From Acetivibrio saccincola (GTDB lineage Bacteria; Bacillota; Clostridia; Acetivibrionales; Acetivibrionaceae), in NCBI RefSeq assembly GCF_002844395.1, contig NZ_CP025197.1, positions 496,001-560,000 on the forward strand: 64,000 nucleotides of DNA, read 5' to 3'. The position numbers and the translations under genes were made by a program. Below, piece by piece: positions 4,480 to 58,551 of this stretch. The notes under the pieces were generated by a model. The model did no database searches and was not told the origin of the DNA. It saw nothing but the letters and a program-made list of their open reading frames with translations. Positions within the stretch are counted from its first letter, which is position 1, and each line of letters begins with the position of its first letter.

Positions 4480-4495
4480 ATTGACATTTGGAAAA

Positions 4496-4535
4496 ACAAA
4501 TAGAGGAAGGTATCATGATACCTTCCCCTATTTGT
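4496..4535 (+). promoter_or_regulatory. Intercistronic stem-loop between binding protein and permease genes
   Basis: The arms at 4496-4514 and 4517-4535 pair at 18 of 19 positions around a 2-nt centre (one A-C mismatch). There is no T-run afterwards, so it is not a classic intrinsic terminator. Such elements after binding-protein genes commonly stabilise the upstream mRNA or reduce read-through, giving more binding protein than permease. A separate promoter before 4612 cannot be excluded. Confidence 0.7.
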
Positions 4536-4611
4536 GAAAATATAGGAAATAAAATTTTAATATATTATTTGTTATAAGGGTAGTTTAGTTTATAATTAGG
4601 AGAGTGTTTAT

Positions 4612-5601
4612 ATGCAAGATTCCAGCTTATCTACAGGTATCAGTAATACCATGGTAGTAAAGAAAAGTGCCAGGAGAAAAAAGTGGGAAAAAATAAAAAG
4701 CCAGAGACAGCTTATGCTCATGTCTGTCCCACTCCTTATATATATTATAATATTTCACTATATACCGCTGTATGGATGGCTGATGGCATTCCAAAGATAC
4801 AGACCAAGCCCTACTGCTACCATATTTAATCAGGAATGGGTGGGCTTAGAGCAATTTAAATTCTTATTTAAAGGTGCCAACTTTGGAAGGGTTTTAAGAA
4901 ATACAGTAGCCATGAGTCTAATAAATCTGGTTCTTTCCTTCGTTACAGCTATAGCCTTGGCACTTTTATTAAACGAGATAAAGAATTTATTTGTTAAAAA
5001 AGTAGTTCAAACTATATCTTATTTACCTTATTTCTTATCATGGGTTATTGCTGCAACAATGGTGTCCCAGGCTCTTTTAAATAACGGTATAGTTAATGAA
5101 ATACTTCTTGCTCTAAGAATAATAGATCAGCCAAAGTTGTGGCTGGCGGAAGGTAAGCACTTCTGGACCATATTTGGAGTGGCCAATGTGTGGAAAAATG
5201 TAGGTTTTAATGCAATAGTTTATCTTGGTGCAATGGCAGCCATCGACCCTCATCTTTACGAGGCGGCGGAAATTGACGGAGCCGGAAGGTTCAAAAAAAT
5301 GCGCTATATAACTTTACCAGGAATCAAATCCACTTTTATGGTGCTATTGATAATGAATGTTGCACACCTTTTGAGTGCAGGGACCGGCGGAAGCGGTTTT
5401 GAGTTCCAGTTACTGCTTCAAAGACCTGGTAACATTGCATGGTCTGAAACAATTGACGTATTTGCAATAAGGTACGGTATCAGGCAGAGTAACTTCTCAT
5501 TAGCTACAGCTGCAGGTATGTTTAAGACAGTTGTAAGTATATTCCTGGTATTTAGCGTAAACGCCATAGCAAAAAAACTCGGGGAAGAAAGGCTTATATA
5601 A
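4612..5601 (+). CDS. LplB-type ABC sugar permease
   Basis: A 329-residue integral membrane protein with about six helices and the inner-membrane-component EAA motif, seen here as YEAAEIDGAGRFKKMRYITLPGI. This is the binding-protein-dependent permease family for CUT1 carbohydrate importers. The N-terminus is basic (KKSARRKKWEKIKSQRQ) before the first helix, as usual in LplB proteins. It lies 132 bp after the binding-protein gene and 12 bp before the second permease, so the two permeases are co-transcribed. No ATPase gene is nearby; a shared MsmK/UgpC-type ATPase encoded elsewhere is expected for this class. Confidence 0.93.
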   Translation: MQDSSLSTGISNTMVVKKSARRKKWEKIKSQRQLMLMSVPLLIYIIIFHYIPLYGWLMAFQRYRPSPTATIFNQEWVGLEQFKFLFKGANFGRVLRNTVAMSLINLVLSFVTAIALALLLNEIKNLFVKKVVQTISYLPYFLSWVIAATMVSQALLNNGIVNEILLALRIIDQPKLWLAEGKHFWTIFGVANVWKNVGFNAIVYLGAMAAIDPHLYEAAEIDGAGRFKKMRYITLPGIKSTFMVLLIMNVAHLLSAGTGGSGFEFQLLLQRPGNIAWSETIDVFAIRYGIRQSNFSLATAAGMFKTVVSIFLVFSVNAIAKKLGEERLI

Positions 5602-5613
5602 GGAGGTGGGAGT

Positions 5614-6528
5614 ATGTATGTTAAAATAGGAAAAAAGAGATACAGCGTAGCTGATATAGCATTTAATGTTTTTAACTTTCTTATTATGACGTTTTTGATT
5701 ATTTCTACATTATACCCTTTCTTAAATACTCTTGCCGTGTCATTTAATGATGGTATTGATGCACTAAGAGGGGGAATACGCCTTTGGCCAAGGATGTTTA
5801 CACTGCAAAACTATAAAACTGTATTTGTTGGCGGGACAATTTTTAATGCATTCCTTGTATCTGTTGCCAGGACCATTTTAGCTGCTGCTATAAACGTTTT
5901 TCTCACAGCCATGATGGGATATTGCCTGAGCAGGAAAGAATATGTGCTAAATAAATTTATCACAGTTGTGTTTGTTTTGACAATGTATTTTAACGCAGGT
6001 TTGATACCTAACTATCTTTTGATTAAAAAACTTGGACTTTTAAATAGTTTTTGGGTTTATATAATCCCAGGTATGATATCAGCATTTAATGTTATAGTTG
6101 TAAGAACTTATATAAATACCATACCGGAAAGTCTTGTAGAGTCTGCAAGAATAGATGGCGCAGGGGATTTTAAAATATTTATACGTATTATTTTCCCTCT
6201 TGCAAAACCAGCCCTTGCCGTTGTTGGTATGTTTACAATAATATATCAGTGGAACAGCTGGTTTGACACATATTTATATGCACCGTCAAAGCAGGAACTT
6301 AGTACACTGCAATATGAACTTCAAAAACTTTTGGCTTCTTCATTTAGCCAAAGTAGTGCACAGAGAGCTACCAGTGCGACAGCCGGTCAGATGGCATCCA
6401 GCTTGGTAACTCCGGTAACTCTCCAGGCTGCTATTACTATAATTGCAATGGTGCCAATACTTTGCGTATATCCACTGCTGCAAAAATACTTTATTGCAGG
6501 ATTAAATGTTGGAGGAGTAAAAGAATAA
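5614..6528 (+). CDS. YtcP/LplC-type ABC sugar permease
   Basis: A 304-residue membrane protein with about six helices and an EAA loop (VESARIDGAGDFKIFIRIIFP). It is the second half of the CUT1 permease heterodimer, ending in the GGVKE-type C-terminus common in this family. A strong AAGGAGG lies seven bases before the ATG. Its stop is 58 bp before the alpha-glucuronidase gene. With the binding protein and LplB partner it probably imports aldouronates or xylo-oligosaccharides released outside the cell by cellulosomal xylanases. Confidence 0.93.
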   Translation: MYVKIGKKRYSVADIAFNVFNFLIMTFLIISTLYPFLNTLAVSFNDGIDALRGGIRLWPRMFTLQNYKTVFVGGTIFNAFLVSVARTILAAAINVFLTAMMGYCLSRKEYVLNKFITVVFVLTMYFNAGLIPNYLLIKKLGLLNSFWVYIIPGMISAFNVIVVRTYINTIPESLVESARIDGAGDFKIFIRIIFPLAKPALAVVGMFTIIYQWNSWFDTYLYAPSKQELSTLQYELQKLLASSFSQSSAQRATSATAGQMASSLVTPVTLQAAITIIAMVPILCVYPLLQKYFIAGLNVGGVKE

Positions 6529-6586
6529 CTACCATTAATGTTTTAAACGGGGCAAAGTAAACTTATAGGGAGAGATAAAAAAAGAA

Positions 6587-8638
6587 ATGTACAGATGCTG
6601 GCTAAGGTATGACAAAATAAAAAATAAAGAACTTATGGATAGCTACATCAGACTGTGCAGCCAAATTGTTACTGATATGTATACACCAATAGTTAATTCA
6701 GCTAAAGCTGAATTAACTAACGGGTTATTTAGTATGTTAGGCACAAAACCAAATATTTCGAAAACTCCCAGGGGTTCATCATTTATTATGTTGGGTATAT
6801 TGGGTAAGAATGAATATATAGATAGAGAGATATTAGAATCTGAAAAAGAAAAGGTATGTAAAGACGGCTATATTATAAAAACAATTGATAAAGAGAAAGA
6901 AAGATTTATTATTATAGCTTCAAAAACAGAAAAAGGTATTTTATACGGAGCATTTGCATTTCTAAGGTTTATGCAAATGCAAAGAGATATTGATAACTTC
7001 TATTTAATTGATAATCCCCATAACCCTCTAAGAATTATCAATCACTGGGACAATATGGACGGCAGCATTGAAAGAGGGTATGCGGGAAAATCTATTTTTT
7101 TTGAAAAAAATAAAATTGTAAATAACATGGACAGAATAACCGACTATGCCAGGCTTTTAGCATCAGTGGGAATAAACGGGGTTGTAATTAATAATGTAAA
7201 TGTACATCAAACAGAGACCAGGCTCATTACAAAAGAATATTTAAAAGATGTGGCAGGACTTGCAGAAATATTTAGAAATTACGGCGTAACTCTTTATTTA
7301 AGTATAAATTATGCAAGCCCCATTGAACTTGGGGATTTAGATACCGCTGACCCTTTAGATGAAAGGGTAAAACAGTGGTGGAAAGACAAAGCAGAGGAAA
7401 TATATGAGTATATCCCCGATTTTGGAGGGTTTTTAGTAAAAGCAGATTCAGAGTTCAGGCCAGGTCCCTTTACATACGGGAGAAACCATGCAGATGGTGC
7501 TAATATGCTGGCGGAAGCATTAGAACCTTTTGGCGGGATTGTTATATGGAGATGTTTTGTCTATAACTGCCTACAGGACTGGAGAGATACAAAAACAGAC
7601 AGGGCAAAGGCAGCATATGACAATTTTAAGCCTTTAGACGGTTTATTCCACGACAATGTAATTTTGCAAATTAAAAACGGTCCTATGGATTTTCAGGTAA
7701 GAGAACCGGTTTCTCCTCTTATTGGCGGGCTGGAGAATACAAATCATGTAGTTGAATTTCAAATAACCCAGGAATATACAGGCCAGCAAATACACCTGTG
7801 CTACCTTGTTCCAATGTGGAAAGAGGTGCTGGATTTTGATACGAGAATAGGTGGCAAAAGTGTAACTGTTAAGGAAATATTAAGTGGTTCTTTTTACAAA
7901 AACAAATACAGTGGCATGGCGGCTGTTGCCAATATAGGAAACGATGCAAATTGGACAGGGCACCAGCTGGCACAGGCAAATTTTTACGGGTATGGGCGTC
8001 TTGCATGGAATCCGGATTTATCATCAGAGAGCATAACTGATGAGTGGGTTAGAATGACTTTTTCCAATGAAAAAGATGTAGTTGACACTATATCCCACAT
8101 GCTCCTTGTATCCTGGAGTATTTATGAGAAATACACCACACCTTTGGGTATAGGGTGGATGGTAAATCCCGGACACCACTACGGACCTAATGTAGACGGG
8201 TATGAATACGATAAATGGGGAACCTATCACAGAGCAGACATCCATGGAATTGGTGTGGATCGTACAGTAAAATCTGGGACAGGGTATACAGCCCAGTATA
8301 GCAAAGAGGTCATGGAGATTTACGAAGATATAAATACATGCCCTGAAGAACTGCTTCTTTTCTTTCACCGTGTGCCTTATAGTTATAAGTTAAAATCAGG
8401 TACAACCCTGATCCAGCACATTTATAACACTCATTTTGAGGGTGTGGAGCAAGTTGAGGAAGACCTTATTAAAAAGTGGCAGGGTTTAAAAGGAAAAATA
8501 GAAGAAGAATCTTTTAATCATGTTTTGGAAAGACTTAATATGCAGCTGGAACATTCAAAAGAATGGCGGGATGTAATAAATACTTATTTTTACAGAAAGA
8601 CGGGGATAAAAGACCAACTAAATAGAAAAATTTACTAA
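6587..8638 (+). CDS. aguA: GH67 alpha-glucuronidase, intracellular
   Basis: A 683-residue enzyme without a signal peptide. It removes 4-O-methylglucuronic acid from the non-reducing end of short aldouronic acids after uptake. The catalytic residues of characterised GH67 enzymes are visible at equivalent spacing: general acid E289 (in KADSEFRPG) and the base candidates D368 (GPMDFQ) and E396 (TQEYTGQ). All three are offset by four from the Geobacillus numbering E285/D364/E392. The length matches the family. It sits between the importer and the GH3 gene, and its TAA lies directly beside the GH3 ribosome-binding site, so the two are translationally close. Confidence 0.95.
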
Positions 8639-8648
8639 GGAGGTTTTT

Positions 8649-10820
8649 ATGGAGAATCAGGTACCTGCTTACAAGAATAAAGAACTTAGTTTTGAGGAAA
8701 GAGCTAAAGACCTGGTTTCAAGGATGACTCTTGAAGAAAAGGTAATGCAAATGCTGCACAGCGCTCCAGGAATACCGAGGCTTGGTATAAAGCCATATAA
8801 TTGGTGGAACGAAGCCCTTCATGGAGTTGCTAGGGCGGGAACTGCAACAATGTTTCCCCAGGCTATTGGTATGGCTGCAACTTTTGATGACGAACTGATA
8901 TACAAAGTTGCGGATGTTATTTCCACAGAAGGGAGAGCCAAGTTTCATGAGTCTCAGAGAAAGGAAGATTATGGAATATACAAAGGGCTGACCTTTTGGT
9001 CTCCTAATGTAAATATTTTTAGAGACCCAAGATGGGGAAGGGGACATGAAACATATGGTGAGGATCCCTATTTGACAAGCAGGTTGGGAGTTGCCTTTAT
9101 AAAAGGACTACAGGGAAATGATGAAAAATACTTAAAGGCTGCTGCTTGTGCTAAGCACTTCGCTGTACACAGCGGACCTGAGCTGGAGAGGCATGAGTTT
9201 AATGCAATTGCTTCAGAAAAAGATATGCGGGAGACATATCTTCCTGCATTTAAAGCCTGCGTAGTGGAAGGAAAAGTTGAAGCTGTTATGGGGGCATACA
9301 ACAGGACAAATGGTGAGCCCTGCTGCGGCAGCAAAACACTGCTTCAGGATATATTAAGGGATGAGTGGGGATTTACCGGCCATGTAGTTTCTGACTGCTG
9401 GGCTATAAAAGATTTCCATGAAACCCACATGGTTACTAAAACCGCTCCTGAATCAGTTGCATTAGCAGTCAATAACGGATGTGATTTAAACTGCGGCAAT
9501 ATGTACGGGAATTTATTAATAGCCCACAAAGAAGGCCTTGTGGATGAGGAAACTATAGATAAGGCGGTAATCAGATTAATGATTACAAGAATGAAGCTTG
9601 GAATGTTTGATGATGAAGAAGATGTACCTTATGCAAAGATACCGTATGAAATAAATGATTGCAAGGAACACAGGGAATTTGCCCTTGAGGTTTCAAAAAA
9701 ATCATTGGTTCTTTTGAAAAATGACAACAATTTATTGCCATTAGATAAAAACAAAATAAAATCAATTGCGGTAATCGGACCTAATGCCAACAGTAGGGAT
9801 GCATTAATAGGTAATTACTACGGAGATGCATCAAGATATGTTACTGTACTGGATGGAATCAGGGAGGTTGTTTCTGAAGATACCAGGATATACTACGCTG
9901 AAGGCTGTCACTTGTACAAGGAGAAACCTACTTTAGCTGAAAGAGGTGCAGGTTTTGCAGAAGCGGTTTCTGTTGCAGAAAGAGCCGATGTTGTAGTTAT
10001 GTGCTTAGGTCTTGACGCAACCATTGAAGGAGAACAGGGAGATGTGTCCAATGACTACGCCGGTGGTGACAAGCCTGACTTAAATCTTCCAGGGCTTCAG
10101 CAGGAACTTTTGGAAGCTGTTCACAAAGCCGGAAAGCCCATTATTTTAGTACTTTTGGCAGGCAGTGCATTGGCAGTTACATGGGCAGATGAAAATGTAC
10201 CTGCAATTATACAAGCATGGTATCCGGGAGCAGAAGGAGGAAAGGCAATTGCTTCACTGATATTTGGTGAGTACAGCCCTTCCGGAAGACTGCCGGTAAC
10301 CTTTTACAGGACAACAGAAGAACTGCCAGATTTCAGGGATTATTCAATGGAAAACCGCACATATAAATACATGAAGAATCCAGCCCTTTATCCCTTTGGC
10401 TATGGCTTAAGCTATACAAAGTTTGAGTACAGCAATCTCACCCTTTCAAAGGATAAGGTTAATGTGGGAGAGGGCATAGAATGCAGCGTAAAGGTAAAAA
10501 ATACAGGCAGTTTTAAAGCTGATGAAATTGTACAGTTGTATGTAAAAGAAGTTGACAATCCGGAAGCTCCAAGATGGCATTTGGAAGGTTTTAAGAGGAT
10601 TAATTTAGCACCTGGTGAGGAAAAGACTGTTGAATTCCAGCTAACAAAAAAGCAGTTGTCCTTTATAAATGAAGAAGGAAAGCGCATGATAAAACCAGGT
10701 ACATTTAAAATATTTGTTGGCGGAAGCCAGCCGGATGAGAGAAGCCAGGAACTTACAGGAACTAAGGTGGAAGAAGCTTCCTTTGAAGTTGTAGGGAATA
10801 TGCTTGAAATAGAATACTGA
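8649..10820 (+). CDS. GH3 glycosidase, probably beta-xylosidase
   Basis: A 723-residue cytoplasmic GH3 enzyme (no signal peptide). Domain order is a TIM-barrel-like N-domain with the KHF motif at 169-171 and nucleophile D249 in VVSDCWA, an alpha/beta sandwich domain (about 360-570), and a C-terminal fibronectin-III-like domain (about 620-700). The N-terminal stretch YNWWNEALHGVAR is characteristic of the xylosidase-like GH3 branch rather than broad beta-glucosidases. Context (GH67 upstream, xylB and xylA downstream) supports release of xylose from xylo-oligosaccharides. Beta-glucosidase or arabinosidase side activity is possible. Confidence 0.9.
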   Translation: MENQVPAYKNKELSFEERAKDLVSRMTLEEKVMQMLHSAPGIPRLGIKPYNWWNEALHGVARAGTATMFPQAIGMAATFDDELIYKVADVISTEGRAKFHESQRKEDYGIYKGLTFWSPNVNIFRDPRWGRGHETYGEDPYLTSRLGVAFIKGLQGNDEKYLKAAACAKHFAVHSGPELERHEFNAIASEKDMRETYLPAFKACVVEGKVEAVMGAYNRTNGEPCCGSKTLLQDILRDEWGFTGHVVSDCWAIKDFHETHMVTKTAPESVALAVNNGCDLNCGNMYGNLLIAHKEGLVDEETIDKAVIRLMITRMKLGMFDDEEDVPYAKIPYEINDCKEHREFALEVSKKSLVLLKNDNNLLPLDKNKIKSIAVIGPNANSRDALIGNYYGDASRYVTVLDGIREVVSEDTRIYYAEGCHLYKEKPTLAERGAGFAEAVSVAERADVVVMCLGLDATIEGEQGDVSNDYAGGDKPDLNLPGLQQELLEAVHKAGKPIILVLLAGSALAVTWADENVPAIIQAWYPGAEGGKAIASLIFGEYSPSGRLPVTFYRTTEELPDFRDYSMENRTYKYMKNPALYPFGYGLSYTKFEYSNLTLSKDKVNVGEGIECSVKVKNTGSFKADEIVQLYVKEVDNPEAPRWHLEGFKRINLAPGEEKTVEFQLTKKQLSFINEEGKRMIKPGTFKIFVGGSQPDERSQELTGTKVEEASFEVVGNMLEIEY

Positions 10821-10866
10821 TAAATCTTGAGAGGTCAAATACTAAGATTATGCAGGGGGGATAAAA

Positions 10867-12396
10867 ATGGCATATTTACTAGGAGTAGATATAGGTACAT
10901 CGGGTACAAAAACAGTACTCTTTGATGAAGCAGGAAATACAATTGCCAGTGCATTGGAAGAATATCCTTTATATCAGCCCAACGTTGGATGGGCGGAACA
11001 GGATCCTGAAGACTGGTGGAGGGCTACGTATAAGTCAATAAACCAGGTTATAGCAAAAAGCGGGATTGATGCATCTGAAATTAAAGGTGTGGGTCTTTCG
11101 GGACAAATGCATGGTGCTGTTTTGCTGGATAAGGATTCAAATGTACTAAGAAGGGCAATAATCTGGTGCGACCAGAGAAGTTATTTAGAATGTGAACAGA
11201 TTACTTCAATGATAGGAAAGGAAAGACTTATTGAGATAACAGCAAATCCTGCATTAACCGGATTTACTGCATCTAAAATACTATGGGTAAAAAATAATGA
11301 ACCGGAAATTTTTGAAAAGGTGAAAAAAATACTTCTTCCAAAGGACTATATCAGATTCCGCCTAACCGGGGAATTTGCCACTGAAGTATCCGATGCCAGC
11401 GGTATGCAGCTAATGGATATACCAAATAGAAAGTGGAGTGACGAGGTATTAGAAAAGCTTGAGATAGATAAAAGTATGCTGGGAACTTTATATGAATCCT
11501 ATGAAATAACCGGAAAAGTCCACAAAGAAGCAGCTGAGTTAACCGGACTTAAAGAAGGAACACCGGTAGTAGGTGGTGGTGGTGACCAGGCAGCAGGTGC
11601 GGTTGGAAATGGAATAGTAAGACCAGGGGTTATTTCTTCAACCATTGGTACTTCAGGAGTTGTATTTGCGTTCTCAGATAGTGTAACAATAGACCCCTTA
11701 GGAAGGGTGCATACTTTCTGCCACGCTGTACCCAACACCTGGCATGTAATGGGGGTTACCCAGGGAGCAGGCTTGTCTCTTAAATGGTTTAGGGATAATT
11801 TCTGCATAGAAGAAAAGAGAACTGCAGAGCTTATGGATACCGACCCTTATATACTAATGGATCAGGAAGCGGAAAATGTGGAGCCTGGCTGCAGTGGTCT
11901 TATTTATCTTCCATATCTCATGGGGGAGAGGACGCCCCATCTTGACCCTAGGGCAAAGGGAGTATTTTTCGGACTATCTGCAAAGCATGAAAAACCACAT
12001 TTTATAAGGTCAGTCATGGAAGGGGTTGTATACAGCCTCAGGGATTGTCTGGAAATAATTAAAGGCATGGGAATAGATGTTTCCCAGGTAAGGGCTTCCG
12101 GAGGCGGCGGAAAGAGTAAATTATGGCGCCAGATGCAGGCAGATGTATTTGGAACAGACATTGTGACAATAAGCTCAAGTGAGGGCCCCGCTCTTGGTGT
12201 TGCACTCCTTGCGGGTGTAGGAACAGGTGTTTACAGCAGTGTGCCGGAGGCTTGTGATGCTGTTATTAAAGTAAAAACAGTACAAAATGCAAATAAGGAC
12301 TTGTACGATAAATACAATAAGTATTATAATATGTACAAGAGACTTTATAATTCACTTAAAAAGGATTTTTATGATTTAGCTGATATAATTGAATAA
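10867..12396 (+). CDS. xylB: Xylulokinase
   Basis: A 509-residue FGGY carbohydrate kinase that phosphorylates D-xylulose to xylulose 5-phosphate. The N-terminus carries the phosphate-binding motif GVDIGTSGTK with D8. The xylulokinase signature GLSGQMHG follows, and the catalytic Asp is D240 in GGGGDQAAGA. The C-terminal half has the second ATP-binding region (RASGGGGKSKLWRQ). It lies 46 bp after the GH3 gene and 58 bp before xylose isomerase in the same direction. Confidence 0.97.
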   Translation: MAYLLGVDIGTSGTKTVLFDEAGNTIASALEEYPLYQPNVGWAEQDPEDWWRATYKSINQVIAKSGIDASEIKGVGLSGQMHGAVLLDKDSNVLRRAIIWCDQRSYLECEQITSMIGKERLIEITANPALTGFTASKILWVKNNEPEIFEKVKKILLPKDYIRFRLTGEFATEVSDASGMQLMDIPNRKWSDEVLEKLEIDKSMLGTLYESYEITGKVHKEAAELTGLKEGTPVVGGGGDQAAGAVGNGIVRPGVISSTIGTSGVVFAFSDSVTIDPLGRVHTFCHAVPNTWHVMGVTQGAGLSLKWFRDNFCIEEKRTAELMDTDPYILMDQEAENVEPGCSGLIYLPYLMGERTPHLDPRAKGVFFGLSAKHEKPHFIRSVMEGVVYSLRDCLEIIKGMGIDVSQVRASGGGGKSKLWRQMQADVFGTDIVTISSSEGPALGVALLAGVGTGVYSSVPEACDAVIKVKTVQNANKDLYDKYNKYYNMYKRLYNSLKKDFYDLADIIE

Positions 12397-12454
12397 TTTA
12401 GGTAATAGAAAAATGCAGTATATAAAATTTTAAAATAACCGGGAGGGAGTAAAA

Positions 12455-13774
12455 ATGGCAGAATTTTTTAAAAACATTTCAAAAATACAATATGAAGGAA
12501 AGGATTCAGATAATCCATTAGCATTTAAATACTACAATCCGGATGAAGTAATTGACGGAAAGACAATGAAAGAGCATCTAAGGTTTGCAGTTGCTTACTG
12601 GCATACTTACCAAGGCGTAGGTGTGGATCCCTTTGGAGCTGGAACAGCTATAAGACCTTGGGATGATATAACAGATCCTATGGATCTTGCTAAGGCAAAA
12701 GTAGAGGCAAATTTTGAGTTTTGTGAAAAGCTGGGTGTTCCGTATTTCTGTTTCCATGACAGGGATATAGCACCTGAGGCATCTACACTAAGAGAAACAA
12801 ACAAAAGGCTTGATGAAATAGTTGCAAAAATAAAAGAATATTTAAAAAACAGCGATGTAAAACTTTTGTGGGGTACCACAAATGCATTTGGTCACCCTAG
12901 ATTTGTACATGGGGCATCTACTTCTCCAAATGCAGATGTATTTGCATTTGCAGCAGCCCAGGTAAAAAAAGCAATGGAAATTACCCTTGAGCTTGGAGGG
13001 GAAAACTATGTATTCTGGGGCGGCAGAGAAGGTTATGAAACACTTCTCAATACCAATATGAAACTTGAGCTTGACAATATGGCAAGATTTTTACAAATGG
13101 CTGTTGATTATGCAAAAGAAATTGGATTTAAAGGCCAGCTGCTAATTGAGCCTAAGCCAAAGGAGCCTACAAAACATCAATATGACTTTGATACTGCAAC
13201 TGTATATGGCTTCTTACTAAAATATGGATTAGATAAGCATTTCAAAATGAATATAGAAGCGAATCATGCTACTTTAGCTGCTCATACTTTCCAACATGAA
13301 CTGCGTGTTGCAAGAATAAACGGAATACTTGGAAGTATAGATGCAAACCAGGGAGACCTGCTATTAGGATGGGATACCGACCAGTTCCCAACTAATATCT
13401 ACGATACTACTTTAGCAATGTATGAAGTTATAAAAGCAGGCGGGTTTACAACAGGAGGATTAAACTTTGACGCTAAGGTAAGAAGAGGTTCCTTTGAGCC
13501 TGAAGATCTTTTCTATGCTCATATCGCAGGTATGGACGCATTTGCTAAAGGATTTAAAATTGCAAATAAAATTGTTAAGGATGGTAAATTCGATAAATTT
13601 ATTGAGGAAAGATATAAGAGCTATGAAAGCGGCATAGGAAAAGACATTGTAGAAGGAAAAGTTGGATTTAAAGAGCTGGAAGAATATGCACTCAATAATG
13701 ATCAGATTAAAAATGTTTCAGGCAGACAAGAAGTTCTTGAAGCTATACTTAACCAGTACATTTTAGAAGATTAA
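12455..13774 (+). CDS. xylA: Xylose isomerase, class II
   Basis: A 439-residue TIM-barrel enzyme converting D-xylose to D-xylulose. The catalytic pair H101 and D104 is seen in FHDRDIAPE. Metal-site signatures include [13 protein letters not shown] and [12 protein letters not shown], and the family motif [10 protein letters not shown] is intact. The length and an N-terminal extension of about 45 residues place it in the class II group used by clostridia. The order xylB-xylA after GH67/GH3 completes a route from imported aldouronate to the pentose phosphate pathway. C. thermocellum lacks this pair. Confidence 0.98.
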
Positions 13775-13816
13775 CACTTAAAATCAAATTTCATATCATA
13801 CTTCCCTTGTTTAAGT

Positions 13817-13847
13817 GTAAAAGACTGCTTTTGAAGCAGTCTTTTAC
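13817..13847 (+). terminator. Hairpin between xylA and galM, possible terminator or attenuator
   Basis: A perfect 14-bp stem (13817-13830 with 13834-13847) around a 3-nt loop. The 3' arm contains CTTTT but the sequence after it is A-rich, so termination may be partial. galM starts 34 bp later with its own Shine-Dalgarno, so this could lower galM expression relative to xylA. Confidence 0.6.
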
Positions 13848-13881
13848 TAACAATAAAATAATAAAAAGTGAGGAAATACTT

Positions 13882-14931
13882 ATGGGTGTTATTAAAGAAA
13901 AATTTTCAGACGGAAAAGATTTTAATAATATAGACATATACACGCTGTCTAATGATTCCGGGATGAAGGCTAAAATAACAAATTACGGAGGTATAGTTGT
14001 ATCCCTTTTTGTTCCGGACAGTAGCGGGAAAATTGATGATGTTGTTTTAGGCTATGACAGCCTTCACAATTATTTTAAAAACAGCTGTTATTTTGGCGGG
14101 ATAATCGGAAGGCATGCCAACAGGATTGAAAATTCATCCTTTGAACTTAACGGGAAAGTATATAATCTGGTGAAAAATGAGGGAAAAAACCATATTCACG
14201 GCGGCAATATAGGTTTTGACAGTGTGGTTTGGAATGCAGAAATAATTGAAGAAGATGGTGTGGAAGCACTTAAATTAACTTATAGAAGTAAGGACGGGGA
14301 AGAAAACTATCCAGGCAATCTTGATGTAACGGTAATATACAAAGTAACAAAGGACAACGCCCTTTCTATAGAATACCAAGCGATTTCTGACAAGGACACA
14401 GTGGTAAATCTCACAAATCATTCTTATTTTAATCTTTCAGGTCACAGCTATGGGGATATATTAAATCATGAAGTTATGATTAATGCAGACAAGTTTACTC
14501 CTATAGATGAATACTCAATACCTACAGGTGAAATAAGGGACGTGGAAGGAACTCCTATGGATTTCAGGAAAATGAAACCAATAAAAGATGCAATTGAAAT
14601 GGAGGATATCCAGATTACTTACGGGAAGGGATTTGACCACAACTGGGTTTTAAATACAAAAGGTATAACGGAAAAAGCGGCAGAGGTGTTTGACCCGGTT
14701 AGTAAAAGGCGTATGGAAGTGTATACCACAAAGCCGGGAGTGCAGTTTTATACGGGGAATAATATCGTAGATTCAAAAATGGGGAAAGACGGTGTAAAAT
14801 ACAGCAAAAGAAGCGGATTTTGTCTTGAAACCCAGTATTTTCCCAACGCATTGAAGCACAAACATTTTCCCTCACCAATTCTAAAAGCAGGAGAAAAGTA
14901 TCAGCATAAAACCATATATAAATTTTTATAA
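13882..14931 (+). CDS. galM: Aldose 1-epimerase (mutarotase)
   Basis: A 349-residue galactose-mutarotase-fold enzyme that interconverts alpha and beta anomers of aldoses. Catalytic motifs are TNHSYFNLSG (His acid) and GFCLETQYFPNA (Glu base). The open frame extends upstream to a TTG inside the preceding hairpin; the ATG at 13882, preceded by GTGAGGAAA and matching the normal N-terminus of the family, is the better start. As the last gene of the pentose cluster it probably speeds supply of the anomer used by xylose isomerase, an inference from position. Confidence 0.93.
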   Translation: MGVIKEKFSDGKDFNNIDIYTLSNDSGMKAKITNYGGIVVSLFVPDSSGKIDDVVLGYDSLHNYFKNSCYFGGIIGRHANRIENSSFELNGKVYNLVKNEGKNHIHGGNIGFDSVVWNAEIIEEDGVEALKLTYRSKDGEENYPGNLDVTVIYKVTKDNALSIEYQAISDKDTVVNLTNHSYFNLSGHSYGDILNHEVMINADKFTPIDEYSIPTGEIRDVEGTPMDFRKMKPIKDAIEMEDIQITYGKGFDHNWVLNTKGITEKAAEVFDPVSKRRMEVYTTKPGVQFYTGNNIVDSKMGKDGVKYSKRSGFCLETQYFPNALKHKHFPSPILKAGEKYQHKTIYKFL

Positions 14932-27276: not shown

Positions 27277-28389
27277 TCACTTTGATTCTAATCCAAGTAA
27301 TTCTTTTAGTTTTCTAAATTTAGCTTTACTTACCGGGATATCGCCTTCTAAGCCCTTTAGTTTAGCAACATAACTGGTAGAGCCAAACCAAGGGGTCAGC
27401 TTTATTATGTGATTTATATTGACAATATAGCATCTGTGGCATCTGAAAAAGTTAGAGTCTTTTAATTGGTCTTCTAAAAAGTCCAAAGTCTCTTTTACGG
27501 TGTATTGGTCATTGTTTGTTACTGCAACAGCGCATCTCTTTCCAGATGTAAAATAGACAATATCATGTATATTAAGGATAAACATTTCTTCATTTTTCCA
27601 TGCAATAATTTTTTCATTGCACAAAGAGAGCTTTTTTTCTATATTACTTACTCTTTCCATCAGATTTGAAATACAATCATAAATAAGTTCCATGTCGTCG
27701 TTATCAGTATCCGAACCGGAACCCCTTTCAGGAAACACTTTATGATTTTTTTGAATTAATAAAAATTCTGATAAAATATTATCAAGAACTTTAGAAGTTT
27801 TAGAATAAAAATCATTAACTGTTGTAGAGGTATTTAAATCATCTACAGGCAATTCTTTGCTTACTTTTTTAATGGCTTCAATATTTTGCTGTATAGTCAT
27901 AAGTGCAGAGTTAATTTTTTCACAAGCATTTTTTATATAGGATTTAATGGAGGATATTTCAGAGTTATTACAACTTTCATTATTAGTATCAGATGCATTT
28001 TTATGAAAAATATCTTCAATTAGAGAAGATAATAAATCTATATCCCAGGGTTTTTGTATAAATTTGTTTATTACTCCGCTGTTAACCATGTCTTTTACTG
28101 CATCAAGGGTTGCCTGACCTGTAAGCAATATACAGGAAGTAGAAGGAGAAATTTCCTTTATCTTTTTAAACAATACATTACCTTTCATATGTGGCATGAG
28201 ATAATCACATATTACTACAGGAATTTCCTTGCCTTCAGACATCAGCTCTTCTATGAGTTCTAATGCTTCTTCACCACTTTCGGCAGTTTCAACTTGAAAA
28301 GCGTAGTTGAATTTAACTTCAAGTTGTTTTTTAAGACTGTCAAGAACTATTTTTTCATCATCCACGCACAAAACAACCGGAATTCCCAT
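27277..28389 (-). CDS. Response regulator with C-terminal LytTR DNA-binding domain
   Basis: A 370-residue regulator. The receiver (about 1-125) has D10/D11 and phospho-acceptor D62 in VVICDYLMPHMKG, with the KPWD motif at the active-site Lys. A long helical linker (about 135-255) leads to a LytTR domain (about 265-365; NIHDIVYFTSGKRCAVAV and NFFRCHRCYIVNINHI), the output used by AgrA-like peptide quorum-sensing regulators. The in-frame ATG six codons upstream lacks a Shine-Dalgarno; GGATGGAG lies ahead of the chosen ATG. It sits in tandem with a second regulator and near a kinase and a putative peptide gene, so it may control that locus. Confidence 0.9.
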   Translation of the reverse strand: MGIPVVLCVDDEKIVLDSLKKQLEVKFNYAFQVETAESGEEALELIEELMSEGKEIPVVICDYLMPHMKGNVLFKKIKEISPSTSCILLTGQATLDAVKDMVNSGVINKFIQKPWDIDLLSSLIEDIFHKNASDTNNESCNNSEISSIKSYIKNACEKINSALMTIQQNIEAIKKVSKELPVDDLNTSTTVNDFYSKTSKVLDNILSEFLLIQKNHKVFPERGSGSDTDNDDMELIYDCISNLMERVSNIEKKLSLCNEKIIAWKNEEMFILNIHDIVYFTSGKRCAVAVTNNDQYTVKETLDFLEDQLKDSNFFRCHRCYIVNINHIIKLTPWFGSTSYVAKLKGLEGDIPVSKAKFRKLKELLGLESK

Positions 28390-28526
28390 AATGCTATCTC
28401 CATCCAATAAATATTATTTACTTTGGAAAAATATAATCAAATTTTCCCAATCTTTTCATACAAGTTTCAAATAATATATTATAGCTTAAACAGAGGCTAA
28501 TATAAAGACAAACTAATATTTTTGAA

Positions 28527-29216
28527 TTATTGTTCCACCAATTTTAACATATCTTTAAGCTTGTTTACTTCTGATTCAATACCGGATATTTTTTCAGCAT
28601 CGCACAAATTAATCATATTTTTTAGTTTTAACACTGTTGTATACATTTCTTTTAATGTGTTTAAATCCGCTATAATTTTATTTGCTTCCTCAGGATTCAG
28701 GCATTGCTTCTCTATAAGAGAGTTTTTTGTTTTTTGTATTTTCTCTTTTATTTGCGTTTCCTTGCCGGAAAGAAATTGTAAGTTTTTATGCTGCTTCTTT
28801 TTTATATGATACAACTCTAAAGAATCAATTACAGCTTTTTTTAGTTCTTCTTTGTCCCAAGGCTTGTCAAAATATTTGTAAAGATTTGCATTATTTATTG
28901 CATTTGCTACTCCTTCAAGAACAGCCTGTCCGGTGAGCAATATTTTAAATGTATCCGGAGATTTTTGGTGAACTTTGCTGAGTAAGACATCGCCTTTCAT
29001 TCCTGGCATTATATAGTCGCAAATAATAACAGGGATATCATAACCCTCATTTAGGAGCTCATCTACCAATTCAAGAGCCTCTGAACCGCTTTCTGAAATT
29101 TCAATAGTATATTTATCATCAATATACGTTGCTAATTCTGATTTTAAGCTGTCTAAAACAATTTTTTCATCATCTACTAAAATAATTGCAGAATTGTTGG
29201 AGAATTCACAATTCAC
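28527..29216 (-). CDS. Response regulator receiver with coiled-coil tail, no DNA-binding domain
   Basis: A 229-residue protein. The receiver (about 8-130) has D15/D16, phospho-acceptor D67 in VIICDYIMPGMKG and a KPWD motif, and is clearly related to the receiver of the next gene (shared VDDEKIVLDSLK, LLTGQA and KPW signatures). Residues 130-229 are charged helices, likely a coiled coil, with no recognised output domain. It may be a phosphate sink, an adaptor for the neighbouring kinase, or a protein-protein output. It diverges from the isoprenoid-synthase-like gene. Confidence 0.88.
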   Translation of the reverse strand: MNCEFSNNSAIILVDDEKIVLDSLKSELATYIDDKYTIEISESGSEALELVDELLNEGYDIPVIICDYIMPGMKGDVLLSKVHQKSPDTFKILLTGQAVLEGVANAINNANLYKYFDKPWDKEELKKAVIDSLELYHIKKKQHKNLQFLSGKETQIKEKIQKTKNSLIEKQCLNPEEANKIIADLNTLKEMYTTVLKLKNMINLCDAEKISGIESEVNKLKDMLKLVEQ

Positions 29217-29346
29217 TAAATCCCTCCAAAAATATTAATTATAAATAATAACTACCGATATAATTATATAATATTTTTGCAAATATTTAAATAGAAATGA
29301 CCAAAATGGGTGTAAAAACGTAGAAAAATGAAAGGATATCGATAAT

Positions 29347-30321
29347 ATGAGGTTTTTTTATGATTTTTATAATGATTTAAAAGAAGTATTTAAAATATGC
29401 CGTGAAATTATATCAAAATATCCTGAAGGGTTAAATGATGCAGGACTAAAAAACCTTAAAAGATATAATGTATTTGAAGAAAATGCTTCAAAAAATTATA
29501 TATGCTATTTACTTTCCTTTTGGATAAATGACAAATGCCATCTTAAAAAAGAAATATGTATAAAAATAACCGTTGCAAACATATTTATGATGTTATTTGC
29601 ATTTATACAAGATGACATAATTGACAGGGAAATAGAGGATGAGGATATTCCTATAATGATAATACTTGGAAATTTATACTTTTCAGAATTTATGTCCATT
29701 TACAGGGAAGTTTTTAAGGGGTATGAAAAGATATGGGATTATTATAATTTTTATATGAAAAAGTGGAGCAAATTTATTTTAGATGAAAAAATAAATATAA
29801 ACAATAGTATGCCACTGGATAGTGATAAAATGGTGTCTTTAATTTCAGGTAAAGCAGAGCTTATCAAAATTGCTGTGGCGGCAATTTGTATTTTAGCTAA
29901 AAAGGAAGAATTACTGGATATGTATTTTAAGGCGGTTGACAGGGTTTTATTTTCACTTCAGGTGGCAGATGACTACATAGATTGGAAAAAAGACCTTAAA
30001 AGAGGTAATGGTAATATTTTACTCAAGGAATTTACAAAAAAGAGGAAGTTAAAGTGTTATAAGGATATAAGGGAATTTGATGTAAAAGAAGAGATGATTT
30101 TTGGAAGCCTGTTAAATGATTTATATATGCTCTTAGTTAAAAATTCCCACAAATTAGACTTAATAATAGGGGATAAAAACATGTATATAAAAGAATTTAA
30201 TGACAGTATATTGAAGTTTATGAAGTCTCAAATGGAAATTTATTTAGAAAGAAGGAAGGAAGTAAAATTAGGCGGTTTTTTTAACTGGGTTGATAAAAAC
30301 ATTTTCAATAAAAGCAATTGA
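29347..30321 (+). CDS. Class I isoprenoid-synthase-fold protein, ComQ-like candidate
   Basis: A 324-residue, mostly helical cytoplasmic protein. It has a first aspartate-rich motif at 89-93 (QDDIIDREIEDED) and a second at 208-216 (LQVADDYIDWKKD), the two metal-binding motifs of trans-prenyltransferases and terpene synthases. The tail is very basic and aromatic. The length and the first motif resemble ComQ, the enzyme that prenylates the ComX pheromone on Trp. An 80-bp gap separates it from a 73-residue precursor-like gene with a C-terminal Trp. A free terpene or diphosphate synthase is the main alternative. The family call rests on motifs only. Confidence 0.7.
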   Translation: MRFFYDFYNDLKEVFKICREIISKYPEGLNDAGLKNLKRYNVFEENASKNYICYLLSFWINDKCHLKKEICIKITVANIFMMLFAFIQDDIIDREIEDEDIPIMIILGNLYFSEFMSIYREVFKGYEKIWDYYNFYMKKWSKFILDEKININNSMPLDSDKMVSLISGKAELIKIAVAAICILAKKEELLDMYFKAVDRVLFSLQVADDYIDWKKDLKRGNGNILLKEFTKKRKLKCYKDIREFDVKEEMIFGSLLNDLYMLLVKNSHKLDLIIGDKNMYIKEFNDSILKFMKSQMEIYLERRKEVKLGGFFNWVDKNIFNKSN

Positions 30322-30401
30322 AGTGAGGGCTGCTTGGCATTTTACCCGTCATTAAAAAACATAACAGTATATAGTAATCAATAAGAAAAGGAGGCAGTAA
30401 A

Positions 30402-30623
30402 ATGAAAGCAGAAGAGCTTAGGGATAAGATAATAAAAAGGGCTGTTTCTGATGAAGAGTTTAAGCGAAACTTATTAAAAGAACCTAACAAAACCATTGAA
30501 AGGGAATTTGGCATATCTACAGGGAATAACGAAATAATAGTTCTTGAAGAAAAACCAAACCTATTCTATATTGTAATACCGTATTCAGGCAATACACCTG
30601 CCGGAGGGGACTACAACTGGTAA
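30402..30623 (+). CDS. NHLP-leader-like precursor peptide ending in Trp (putative RiPP or pheromone)
   Basis: A 73-residue protein with a perfect AAGGAGG seven bases before the ATG. Residues 1-60 match the nitrile-hydratase-alpha-like leader (NHLP) pattern: helical start, DEEFKRNLLKEPNKTIEREFGI, then a strand ending in PNLFYIVIP. The remaining YSGNTPAGGDYNW is short, Gly-rich and ends in Trp73. A Gly-Gly at 68-69 could be a cleavage point, leaving a four-residue tail. Followed within 36 bp by a hairpin. Together with the ComQ-like gene and nearby two-component genes it suggests a prenylated signalling peptide. No product is known. Confidence 0.72.
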   Translation: MKAEELRDKIIKRAVSDEEFKRNLLKEPNKTIEREFGISTGNNEIIVLEEKPNLFYIVIPYSGNTPAGGDYNW

Positions 30624-30628
30624 ATAAC

Positions 30629-30658
30629 AAAAGCATTTAAATCTTAACCAGTGCTTTT
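30629..30658. terminator. Hairpin after the precursor-peptide gene
   Basis: AAAAGCA (30629-30635) pairs with TGCTTTT (30652-30658), the latter giving a short T-run for plus-strand transcripts. It overlaps the last codons of the convergent histidine kinase gene. Confidence 0.55.
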
Positions 30659-33082
30659 ATCATCAAGTGTTTTATTTATTGGAATATAAACAGAAAAGGT
30701 TGTCTTGCCAGGTTCAGTGCTCACTTCAATTTTTCCATTATGATTATTGATGATTCTGGCTACAATATCGAGACCTAGTCCGGTTCCTTCACCTAAAGGT
30801 TTGGTTGTAAAAAAAGGCTGGAAAATTTTATCCTTTATGCCGTCAGGAATTCCGGGACCTGAATCGGTAATTGACACAACTATACAGTTGTCTTTTACAG
30901 TTGTATCTATTGTAAGTACTCCTTTATATTCCATTGCCTGAAGGGCGTTATGAATTATATTTGTCCACACTTGTGTAAGTTCATCGGCATTGGATTTAAT
31001 TTTAGGGATATCAGAATAATTTTTTACAACTTCCACTTCTGGCTTGATTTTATTATTATATATTGTAAGTACAGTTTCGATGGTTTGAATTACATCTGTA
31101 TCTTCTTTGTCAGTTGAATTGCTTTGGTGGGAATAAGATTTTAGTGCAAATACAACTTTAGAGGTTTTATCTGCGGCTAATGATATAGTGTGTGAACTAT
31201 TTTTAAGGTTTGTCACTAAATAGGCTACTTCCACTATTACGTGCAATTCAGGGTTTTCTAAAATTTTAATGTATGGTTTATAATCTGATATACCTAAAGA
31301 CGTAAGCTGTTCTGCTAATTTGTGTGCATTTTTTATTCCCAGCTGGTTTAGTTCTTTTAAAATAGCCCTTTTGTGCTTCCGTTCATCTTTTGTGGAAATA
31401 TAAATATTATTGTTTTTTGAATTTTTAATAAGGAATAAAAGCATTTGAATTTTTTCAGGTGTAGCAACCGTTAAAAAGCCGGACAGGGAGTTGATGATAT
31501 TTTCAATATATCCTTCCATATTATTAATGGATGCCTGTATAGCCCCTAAAGGAGTATTTAATTCATGTGCAATTCCGGAAACAAGCTGACCTAACGCCGC
31601 CATTTTTTCTGATTTTATCAGTTGTTCCTGGGTACTTTTCAGCTTTTCTAAAGTTTCAATAAGTTCTATATTTGAGGCATGTAATTCTTCATTAAGTAAG
31701 GTAAGTTCAGTATTTGCCTCTTTAAGCTGGCGGGTCCTTTCAAGAACTTTATCTTCTAAAGTTTTATTCAATTCAGCAAGCCTGTCCCTGGATTTTTTAA
31801 CTTCATTCCACATTAAATCCAATTGGGCATTCTTTTTTTCAAGCCGCTTTGAATAAAGAATAGTTTTATTGTGAAGAGAAGTGATTTTTCTTGCTAAAAT
31901 AATTATTTGTGAAAATATAAAAATAAGAATACCCCACTGAAAAAGTGAAAACCTATAATTATTGGAATAAAATAAAAATACGAACATTTCAGCGATGAGA
32001 ATACCTGCAAATCCAAAAAGACCGGCCATAAATATTTTGGCATCGGTGTTTCCTTTGTAAGAATTATATATAGCGGTTGCTACAAGTATTATCATGCTGA
32101 TTAATGACCATCCTCCAAGCAGATAAACATAAGGGTGGTAACCTAGTATAATGACATCTATTTTATGCAAAAACATTATAAAGAGTACAATTATATTTAT
32201 TTTCAGAGATATATTGATTATTTTTTTGTATCCTTCCCCAAATATTTGCTTGTAAAAATAAGTTATTGAAAATAAGGAGCCCAATACCAGAATACTAAAA
32301 TATCCATCATACACCCAATCAAATTCAGGGAATTTTTCTATAAAATTAGAAAATTGTACAATATACACAAGCCCCATACATATTAATACAGGGCACAGGG
32401 AGATAACTATTTTTTTACTGAGACCTACAATAAGAAATGCAGCTATAAGCAAAACTATACCCAAAAAAATCAATGAAAACCCAATTACTTCACTGACATA
32501 TCCCTTTTTTGAAAACAAGGAAGATATTTTTTTATAATCCCCAAAATATACATTTTTGACAGGTCCAAATCTGTGATATAAATCCAAAGATATCCGTATA
32601 TATAAATAGTGTCCGTAGTCGTCAGGAATAAGGGGGACAATGAAAGAATTTTTGTCAGTGTTTGAATGCAAGTTCCTGTTGTCAAAAATAAACCTTCCGT
32701 TTATGTATACTGAAATGGACTCACCATAAATTTCCTCAAAATAAATTGCCGGAGACAGCCAGCCGGCTTCGGGTATTTTTATTCTGAGCCAGACAGTATT
32801 GCAATTTTTAGGTCTTTGTATATAGCTTGATATATTTTCAATATTATTCCACTTCAGATTATATTCCGGGGACTCAGGGGAAAGACTGAGGCTTTCTGCT
32901 AATAAATCGCCTATATGATACTGCCAGTTTTCATTCAAAGTAGTGTAAGCATTGTAATCAGTAATGTGTGTATTTTGGCCGTTAGCATTATTATCAGAGG
33001 AAGTGGAATAAACAGGTATAAAGGCAAAAAGAATAAAAAATAAAAGCAATGAGGTTAAAATATTTTTAAAGCTGCACTTCAT
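30644..33082 (-). CDS. 7TMR-DISM sensor histidine kinase
   Basis: An 812-residue membrane kinase. Signal peptide (1-26), an extracellular jelly-roll domain (about 45-185; WLRIKIPEAGW and IYGESISVYINGRFIFDN) of the 7TMR-DISM type, seven helices (about 195-400), a coiled coil (about 410-490) and a kinase core with phospho-acceptor H506 in SGIAHELNTPLGA. About 150 residues separate the H-box from the N-box (WTNIIHNALQAM), longer than usual, then GPGIP and GTGLGL boxes. No receiver is fused. It converges on the precursor-peptide gene with 20 bp between stops. The two response regulators nearby lack any other local kinase, so it is their likely partner. Confidence 0.9.
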   Translation of the reverse strand: MKCSFKNILTSLLLFFILFAFIPVYSTSSDNNANGQNTHITDYNAYTTLNENWQYHIGDLLAESLSLSPESPEYNLKWNNIENISSYIQRPKNCNTVWLRIKIPEAGWLSPAIYFEEIYGESISVYINGRFIFDNRNLHSNTDKNSFIVPLIPDDYGHYLYIRISLDLYHRFGPVKNVYFGDYKKISSLFSKKGYVSEVIGFSLIFLGIVLLIAAFLIVGLSKKIVISLCPVLICMGLVYIVQFSNFIEKFPEFDWVYDGYFSILVLGSLFSITYFYKQIFGEGYKKIINISLKINIIVLFIMFLHKIDVIILGYHPYVYLLGGWSLISMIILVATAIYNSYKGNTDAKIFMAGLFGFAGILIAEMFVFLFYSNNYRFSLFQWGILIFIFSQIIILARKITSLHNKTILYSKRLEKKNAQLDLMWNEVKKSRDRLAELNKTLEDKVLERTRQLKEANTELTLLNEELHASNIELIETLEKLKSTQEQLIKSEKMAALGQLVSGIAHELNTPLGAIQASINNMEGYIENIINSLSGFLTVATPEKIQMLLFLIKNSKNNNIYISTKDERKHKRAILKELNQLGIKNAHKLAEQLTSLGISDYKPYIKILENPELHVIVEVAYLVTNLKNSSHTISLAADKTSKVVFALKSYSHQSNSTDKEDTDVIQTIETVLTIYNNKIKPEVEVVKNYSDIPKIKSNADELTQVWTNIIHNALQAMEYKGVLTIDTTVKDNCIVVSITDSGPGIPDGIKDKIFQPFFTTKPLGEGTGLGLDIVARIINNHNGKIEVSTEPGKTTFSVYIPINKTLDDKSTG

Positions 33083-58498: not shown

Positions 58499-58551
58499 TA
58501 AAGGTCTTTTTATTAAGATCATACATCATTAATTTTATGGGAGGAATGGTA

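Follow-up and report, generated by a model that had tools for sequence, protein, structure and literature searches.

A putative PalQXP-type prenyl-peptide signalling cassette with a two-regulator output in Acetivibrio saccincola

Organization of the locus

The window analysed here is a stretch of 64,000 nucleotides from Acetivibrio saccincola (GCF_002844395.1, NZ_CP025197.1 496,001-560,000), and it contains a five-gene locus that resembles the PalQ-PalX-PalP system of Paenibacillus alvei and adds two response regulators to it. The palQ-like gene (window positions 29347..30321, + strand) encodes a predicted tryptophan prenyltransferase of 324 residues with a trans-isoprenyl-synthase fold, which bears two aspartate-rich motifs, DDIID at residues 89-93 and DDYID at residues 208-212. 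The open reading frame (ORF) of the palX-like gene (30402..30623, + strand) begins 80 bp past the palQ stop codon, is preceded by AAAAGGAGG, and encodes a 73-residue precursor with an NHLP leader and a Trp as its last residue. The palP-like gene (30644..33082, - strand) encodes a sensor kinase of 812 residues with a HATPase_c match and a modelled sensor half. It converges on palX, the two stop codons lying on either side of a 20-bp gap (30624..30643). These three ORFs, their motifs and their spacing are as described in the original prediction, which had been made from the letters alone.

The locus is larger than first noted, since two response-regulator genes lie upstream on the - strand. Response regulator 1 (28527..29216, - strand; 229 residues from a GTG start) is composed of a REC domain (Response_reg, E=1e-15) and a C-terminal tail, in which Pfam recognised no DNA-binding domain. 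Response regulator 2 (27277..28407, - strand; 376 residues from a TTG start) consists of a REC domain, a linker and a LytTR DNA-binding domain (Response_reg, E=2.2e-19; LytTR, E=3.4e-24). All five genes occur together again in the four relatives with sufficient upstream sequence (loci L012, L014, L015 and L042).

Response regulator 1 is divergent to palQ, 130 bp away. The intergenic region between them (29217..29346) holds an AT-rich, promoter-like conserved block on the regulator side, which the alignment shows in the window, L012, L014 and L015 and which is missing in the stretch of L013 that was compared. By eye, no convincing LytTR-type direct repeat was found in the five stretches footprinted, where the conserved blocks are promoter-like. 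A terminator hairpin between palX and the kinase was rejected, because the hairpin overlapping the 20-bp gap was no better than those of shuffled sequences (z = -0.86).

The PalQ-like enzyme adopts a predicted prenyl-synthase fold

By sequence, the enzyme matches PF00348 below the cut-off (E=0.23, 11.1 bits, cut-off 27). A single-sequence search of the PDB gave 0 matches, and a profile of 29 PalQ sequences found nothing significant among PDB sequences, the best being a polyprenyl synthase at E=0.14. NCBIfam offered no meaningful family for the same 29 sequences. An AlphaFold model built on the 29-row alignment reached a predicted local distance difference test (pLDDT) score of 90.7, and all of the 50 PDB fold matches listed are prenyl-synthase entries by title. 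The best is 4jyx (template-modelling (TM) score 0.70, E=2e-4, probability 1.00), 10 matches have E<=0.001, and the identity across the 50 is 10-16%. The structure prediction that had been proposed as a check therefore points to a prenyl-synthase fold.

In the alignment (29 sequences including the window protein, with 28 of the 30 fetched loci contributing), D89, D93, Q205, D208, D209 and D212 are invariant. The available text on P. alvei PalQ names D89/D93, Q197 and D200/D204 as its residues (PMC10853753). D89/D93 of the first aspartate-rich motif (FARM) is shared, while Q205/D208/D212 of the window enzyme correspond to Q197/D200/D204. These five residues stand at exactly the published numbers in 13 of the 24 Paenibacillus homologues aligned; we think that start choice or indels shifted the numbering in the others. 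A 2026 review, as far as its available portion goes, groups PalQ with enzymes resembling trans-isoprenyl diphosphate synthases in which a Gln immediately precedes the second aspartate-rich motif (SARM) as a common feature (PMC13290415). Because a D200A/D204A mutant of PalQ is still active (PMC10853753), the SARM marks kinship, not function.

Beyond its clostridial homologues, the closest kin found for the window enzyme are Paenibacillus PalQ homologues (25-31% identity), and not the ordinary terpene or prenyl-diphosphate synthases that had been considered as a refutation. Kinship with P. alvei PalQ itself was judged through these homologues and the residue numbers in the part of PMC10853753 available. 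PF00348 is matched at E<=0.1 by 4 of the 29 aligned homologues (best 4.5e-4), the window protein not being among them, and a separate PF00348 enzyme is encoded elsewhere in the genome. Fifteen of the 29 also match DUF5685 (best E=3.7e-6), which the window protein does not; from these matches, DUF5685 may be a distant relative of PalQ.

In the PalQ tree, from which 12 of the 79 palQ loci were omitted (duplicates, and L041), a supported split (98/96) separates the clostridial sequences from those of Paenibacillaceae. Since the tree has long branches, which drew a warning from the program, and no outgroup, the direction of transfer cannot be read from it, and transfer from a particular Paenibacillus lineage is unsupported.

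The PalX-like precursor has a probable NHLP leader and a terminal Trp

The 73-residue ORF matches TIGR03793 (leader_NHLP; E=1e-13) at 50.9 bits, exactly the curated cut-off of 50.9, in keeping with the predicted use of an NHLP-type leader in place of the ComX leader. In a genome-wide search for the NHLP leader it scored 49.5 bits, slightly under the 50.9-bit cut-off, and was the only match found. We set the boundary between a conserved leader (residues ~1-60) and a variable core (~61-73), which ends in DYNW. The window peptide has a single Trp, at its C terminus; many Paenibacillus homologues have an extra Trp within the leader.

An NHLP peptide gene lies downstream of palQ in 77 of 79 loci (redundant loci and the window's own counted), so the proposed neighbourhood survey found a Trp-containing NHLP peptide gene kept beside the homologues; the two loci without one both come from genome G319. 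The peptides were selected by leader motif and not by Trp, and all 58 distinct ones have a Trp within the last three residues: it is terminal in 47 and one or two positions from the end in 11. The peptides whose Trp is followed by one or two further residues are those of L037, L038, L047, L048, L051, L056, L057, L061, L063, L065-L068 and L070; peptides of this kind occur in Paenibacillaceae-type genomes and depart naturally from the strictly C-terminal Trp that P. alvei PalQ is reported to require.

Between the window and four relatives, the leader shows a proportion of nonsynonymous differences (pN) of 0.05-0.14 against a proportion of synonymous differences (pS) of 0.34-0.63. In the core, pN is 0.18-0.48 and pS 0.50-0.94, over 13 codons only. 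Because leader pN is far below pS in all four comparisons, the palX ORF evolves as a protein. With the peptide gene conserved beside palQ homologues, the worry that it might not be conserved has fallen away.

The PalP-like kinase accompanies palQ and palX

The kinase matches HATPase_c with 84.5 bits; two other matches are under their cut-offs (7TMR-DISM_7TM, 24.5 bits against 29; HisKA, 24.0 against 26.9). It is modelled as a jelly roll (residues ~46-182), a seven-transmembrane (7TM)-like helical membrane part (183-399), a coil, HisKA with His506, and HATPase, and the model of the first 400 residues has a pLDDT of 79. The earlier assignment to the 7TMR-DISM kinases is supported in the form of a 7TMR-DISM-like kinase conserved within the unit. 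Compared with the PDB, the jelly roll is most similar to those of glycoside hydrolase family 2 (GH2) glycosidases. The sensor fold also weakly resembles human WLS (8tzs; rank 7, E=3e-5, TM score 0.31, root-mean-square deviation 14.9), a likeness at domain level; judged by their titles, the remaining sensor fold matches listed are GH2-type glycosidases. Human WLS carries lipidated Wnt. We found no treatment of 7TMR-DISM and Wntless together in the open-licence literature.

The first 400 residues match kinases in 26/26 Paenibacillus loci. A sensor homologue is present in 31/31 flanked loci (L012-L042); in 28 it lies convergent and directly downstream of palX, and in L031, L033 and L035 only upstream of palQ. 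Six of the 31 have two sensor copies. Among the 102 families of ORFs of at least 110 residues in these loci, a threshold that excludes palX by size, only palQ and palP occur in all 31; the next family reaches 7/31, none of them clostridial. In a second, mostly score-ranked set of short loci, which overlaps the first, 34 of 35 have half of a PalP-like kinase downstream in convergent orientation, with none found in L049.

Among the long parts of the kinase, the extracellular domain varies most between the window and four relatives (identity 0.79, 0.71, 0.60 and 0.44), and the coil varies least. A variable peptide core and a variable extracellular domain are what a peptide-receptor pair would look like, though 13 codons are no proof. 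A swap of the kinase core was considered as well and is neither favoured nor refuted; the genome has no close transmitter paralogue, the best other match being 36% identical over 155 of 333 residues.

Two response regulators mark the clostridial loci

The LytTR domain of response regulator 2 is the only LytTR match found in the genome, which makes this regulator the natural output of the locus. Homologues of both regulators occur in L012, L014, L015 and L042, that is, in 4/4 clostridial loci with enough upstream sequence; the contig of L013 is too short to show whether they are present there. The predicted LytTR regulator is therefore part of one conserved unit. Within ~5-6 kb, both are found in 0/26 Paenibacillus loci, where the one regulator seen, in L018 (E=5e-5), is unrelated. 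This comparison covers L012-L042, the short loci L045-L080 lying outside it.

At positions 1-1714 of L042, a locus from a second genus, the LytTR regulator is shortened in its DNA-binding domain (E=4.6e-5), and it overlaps the last part of another ORF, which by eye looks like a transposase. Since its LytTR end is cut short, this copy may be dead. A second NHLP-like ORF of 109 residues without a C-terminal Trp (6552-6881) lies upstream of the palP-like gene of the same locus and matches NHase_alpha at 25.1 bits, under the cut-off.

Distribution and co-occurrence

A scan of the genome collection yielded 30 palQ loci, 4 of Acetivibrio type and 26 of Paenibacillus. The later counts come from different queries: a single sequence for the GTDB family, alignment A1 for the class, and alignment A3 for the phylum and for family f108. 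PalQ is present in 6/14 genomes of the GTDB family, including 5/5 in the window's genus, in 4/391 genomes of the class sample and in 6/398 of the phylum sample, five of these in f108. Within f108 it is present in 291/344 genomes. We infer that f108 is Paenibacillaceae, because the PalQ of its member G955 is identical to that of P. glucanolyticus.

The sensor profile and palQ hit the same 6 of the 14 family genomes, a coincidence expected once in 3003 by chance for independent genomes, although these genomes are related. The four strongest sensor matches of the class sample (E 3e-125 to 4e-47) fall in its four palQ genomes. Enzyme, peptide and sensor are linked and occur together, and this suggests that they form one inherited unit in the genus of the window and in most sampled genomes of Paenibacillaceae type.

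Genome G319, a member of the class, departs from this arrangement. Its PalQ homologue (L043, 9840-16385) adjoins a 632-residue protein whose only Pfam match is DUF4135, presumably the dehydratase part of LanM. The same locus has two subtilase genes, one identified by a test and one by eye, and encodes three NHLP-like peptides, two of them tested, that lack a C-terminal Trp; the PalQ family therefore extends beyond peptides ending in Trp. At the end of the palQ contig lies a fragment of a kinase, with 32% identity to that of the window. On another contig of G319 (L102, 1961-5870), a squalene-hopene-cyclase-like gene lies beside two PalP-like sensors. These genes may belong to a prenyl-RiPP pathway of another kind (RiPP, ribosomally synthesized and post-translationally modified peptide).

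Genomic surroundings

Judged by eye, window positions 2791-14931 hold a row of genes for a sugar ATP-binding cassette transporter, a glycosidase, a xylulokinase, a xylose isomerase and an epimerase-like protein, preceded by an AraC-type two-component pair. A large scaffoldin-like gene with repeated cohesin-type modules (by eye) and Pro/Thr/Ser linkers occupies 58537-63999 and runs past the window end; the - strand ORFs that recur in this region are antisense to it.

Discussion

Relation to known systems

In P. alvei, a prenyltransferase (PalQ), an NHLP precursor with a C-terminal Trp (PalX) and an adjacent histidine kinase (PalP) have been described by Miyata, Ito and Fujinami (2023; PMC10853753). 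According to the available text of that paper, PalQ attaches C5, C10 and C15 groups, but not C20, to the C-terminal Trp in vitro, the C5 product being linked at indole C3 as seen by nuclear magnetic resonance. The window has a counterpart for each part: an enzyme resembling trans-isoprenyl diphosphate synthases, with FARM D89/D93, a DxxxD SARM and a Gln three residues before it; an adjoining gene for an NHLP precursor with a C-terminal Trp; and a kinase whose sensor half is homologous to the kinases of other Paenibacillus, with which, rather than with P. alvei PalP, it was compared. The usual Paenibacillus order of Q, X and a convergent kinase is also that of the window. In contrast, the window adds two response regulators, one of them LytTR-type; its kinase has 812 residues against mostly 625-665, with a longer HisKA-HATPase stretch; its core ends in DYNW; and its enzyme shares only 25-31% identity with those of Paenibacillus.

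The original prediction had called the locus ComQXPA-like and knew of no described system with this combination of parts. The second statement has been overtaken by PalQ, PalX and PalP, which already provide the enzyme, the NHLP/Trp precursor and the adjacent kinase. The available portions of PMC10853753 and PMC13290415 make no mention of clostridia, and no report of a two-regulator clostridial variant was found in the open-licence literature; the pair of response regulators, LytTR included, is the only part of the combination absent from the literature searched and seems new.

The likeness to ComQXPA is one of outline: a Trp-prenylating enzyme of the same superfamily, a short peptide, a membrane kinase and a response regulator. 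The ComA regulator is NarL-type. ComP-type kinases carry PF07730 (PMC4008528), and in ComQ a pseudo-SARM takes the place of the second motif, the modified Trp being usually third or fourth from the end (PMC5331326, PMC4008528), as far as the available parts of these papers show. The window enzyme has an intact DDYID at 208-212, and its peptide a C-terminal Trp and an NHLP leader, whereas ComX has an internal Trp and no such leader; the four Bacillus genes lie on one strand, those of the window on both. No ComX (PF05952), HisKA_3 or NarL-type domain is among the Pfam matches of the window proteins (PF05952 up to E=1, speed filters on). With no ComX-family peptide bearing an internal Trp, no pseudo-SARM and no PF07730 or NarL-type domain, membership in ComQXPA was rejected and "PalQXP-like" is the better description.

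Agr is a LytTR two-component peptide system. It shares with our locus a LytTR regulator as the output of a peptide-sensing kinase, and differs in the families of kinase, enzyme and peptide.

Proposed mechanism

We consider it fairly likely that the locus is a clostridial cassette for prenyl-peptide signalling of the PalQXP type, with two regulators of its own as output. In this model the PalQ-like enzyme would bind the 73-residue precursor by its NHLP leader and, using a C10 or C15 prenyl diphosphate, attach the prenyl group to indole C3 of Trp73. After removal of the leader, the short lipidated peptide would be exported by means encoded outside the locus and sensed at the membrane by the PalP-like kinase with its 7TMR-DISM-like sensor. 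The kinase would then signal via His506 to one or both response regulators, and the LytTR regulator would alter target transcription. It is reasonable to infer a quorum-sensing role, in which the peptide would report cell density. The function originally guessed, the same job as ComQXPA-type prenyl-peptide signalling, is probably right: enzyme, peptide, kinase and LytTR regulator form one conserved unit, but the family is PalQXP.

Several observations weigh against the signalling cassette. None of the genes at the locus was recognised as encoding an exporter or a leader protease, and one C39 peptidase is encoded elsewhere in the genome. Peptide prenylation by the window enzyme is presumed by analogy with its homologue P. 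alvei PalQ, from which it is separated by low identity (25-31% to the Paenibacillus homologues), and the published P. alvei PalX core peptide was found in 0/394 genomes in a search aimed at its PalQ. Alanines added after the Trp abolished P. alvei PalQ activity (PMC10853753, available text), and 11/58 peptides carry extensions of this kind; the enzymes paired with them therefore probably differ from P. alvei PalQ. Neither a LytTR binding site nor a regulon was found in the five footprinted stretches. The co-occurrence counts are drawn from related genomes, and 7/387 palQ-less class genomes have weaker sensor matches (6.6e-33 to 7.5e-6). In G319, the best sensor matches are on a contig other than that of palQ, and the PalQ homologue is beside NHLP peptides without a C-terminal Trp.

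Alternative explanations

The product could instead be a prenylated antimicrobial or surface-active RiPP, a class of natural products for which NHLP leaders are typical. The kinase and regulators would then do no more than sense this product and adjust its synthesis, in the manner of autoinducing lantibiotics. PalQ has indeed been used on antimicrobial peptides, with prenylation raising their activity (PMC13290415, available portion). However, since only palQ and palP recur across the 31 flanked loci, there is no shared immunity or export gene of at least 110 residues, and the presence of palQ in 291/344 Paenibacillaceae-type genomes is in our view unusual for an accessory antimicrobial. We regard this explanation as unlikely. 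The peptide might also be prenylated and kept in or on the cell, with the kinase sensing another signal, such as a sugar via the jelly roll, to control palQX. The GH2-like jelly roll, the lack of a recognised exporter at the locus and the nearby scaffoldin-like gene, which suggests life on plant fibre, would suit such a role. The sensor, however, is linked to palX in Paenibacillus too and tracks the presence and absence of palQ across the family, and we find this explanation rather improbable.

A chance neighbourhood of unrelated genes with an ordinary terpene or prenyl-diphosphate synthase is very improbable and was rejected. The predicted fold and both DDxxD motifs are those of trans-isoprenyl diphosphate synthases (e.g. 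PDB 4jyx), and the few homologues with PF00348 matches point the same way. The window protein, by contrast, has no significant PF00348 match, the genome encodes another enzyme that does match PF00348, the Gln three residues before the second motif is as in PalQ, and palQ is in fixed linkage with the peptide gene and the kinase in both Paenibacillus and Acetivibrio.

Implications

A broader proposal, which we hold tentatively and with slightly more doubt than belief, is that PalQXP forms a second family of prenylated-Trp pheromones apart from ComQXPA. It would be near-core in Paenibacillaceae and accompanied in Acetivibrio by two dedicated regulators, one receiver-only and one of LytTR type, and its jelly-roll/7TM protein, with its weak domain-level likeness to WLS, would be a receptor for a lipidated peptide. 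In the literature so far, judged from the portions available, PalQ figures mainly as an enzyme and a tool. For the downstream half, which had been missing, the clostridial variant offers a candidate in its two regulators, one of which has the sole LytTR domain detected in the genome. The question of whether PalX is a pheromone thereby becomes directly testable with a small number of parts, and in industrially interesting bacteria that degrade cellulose.

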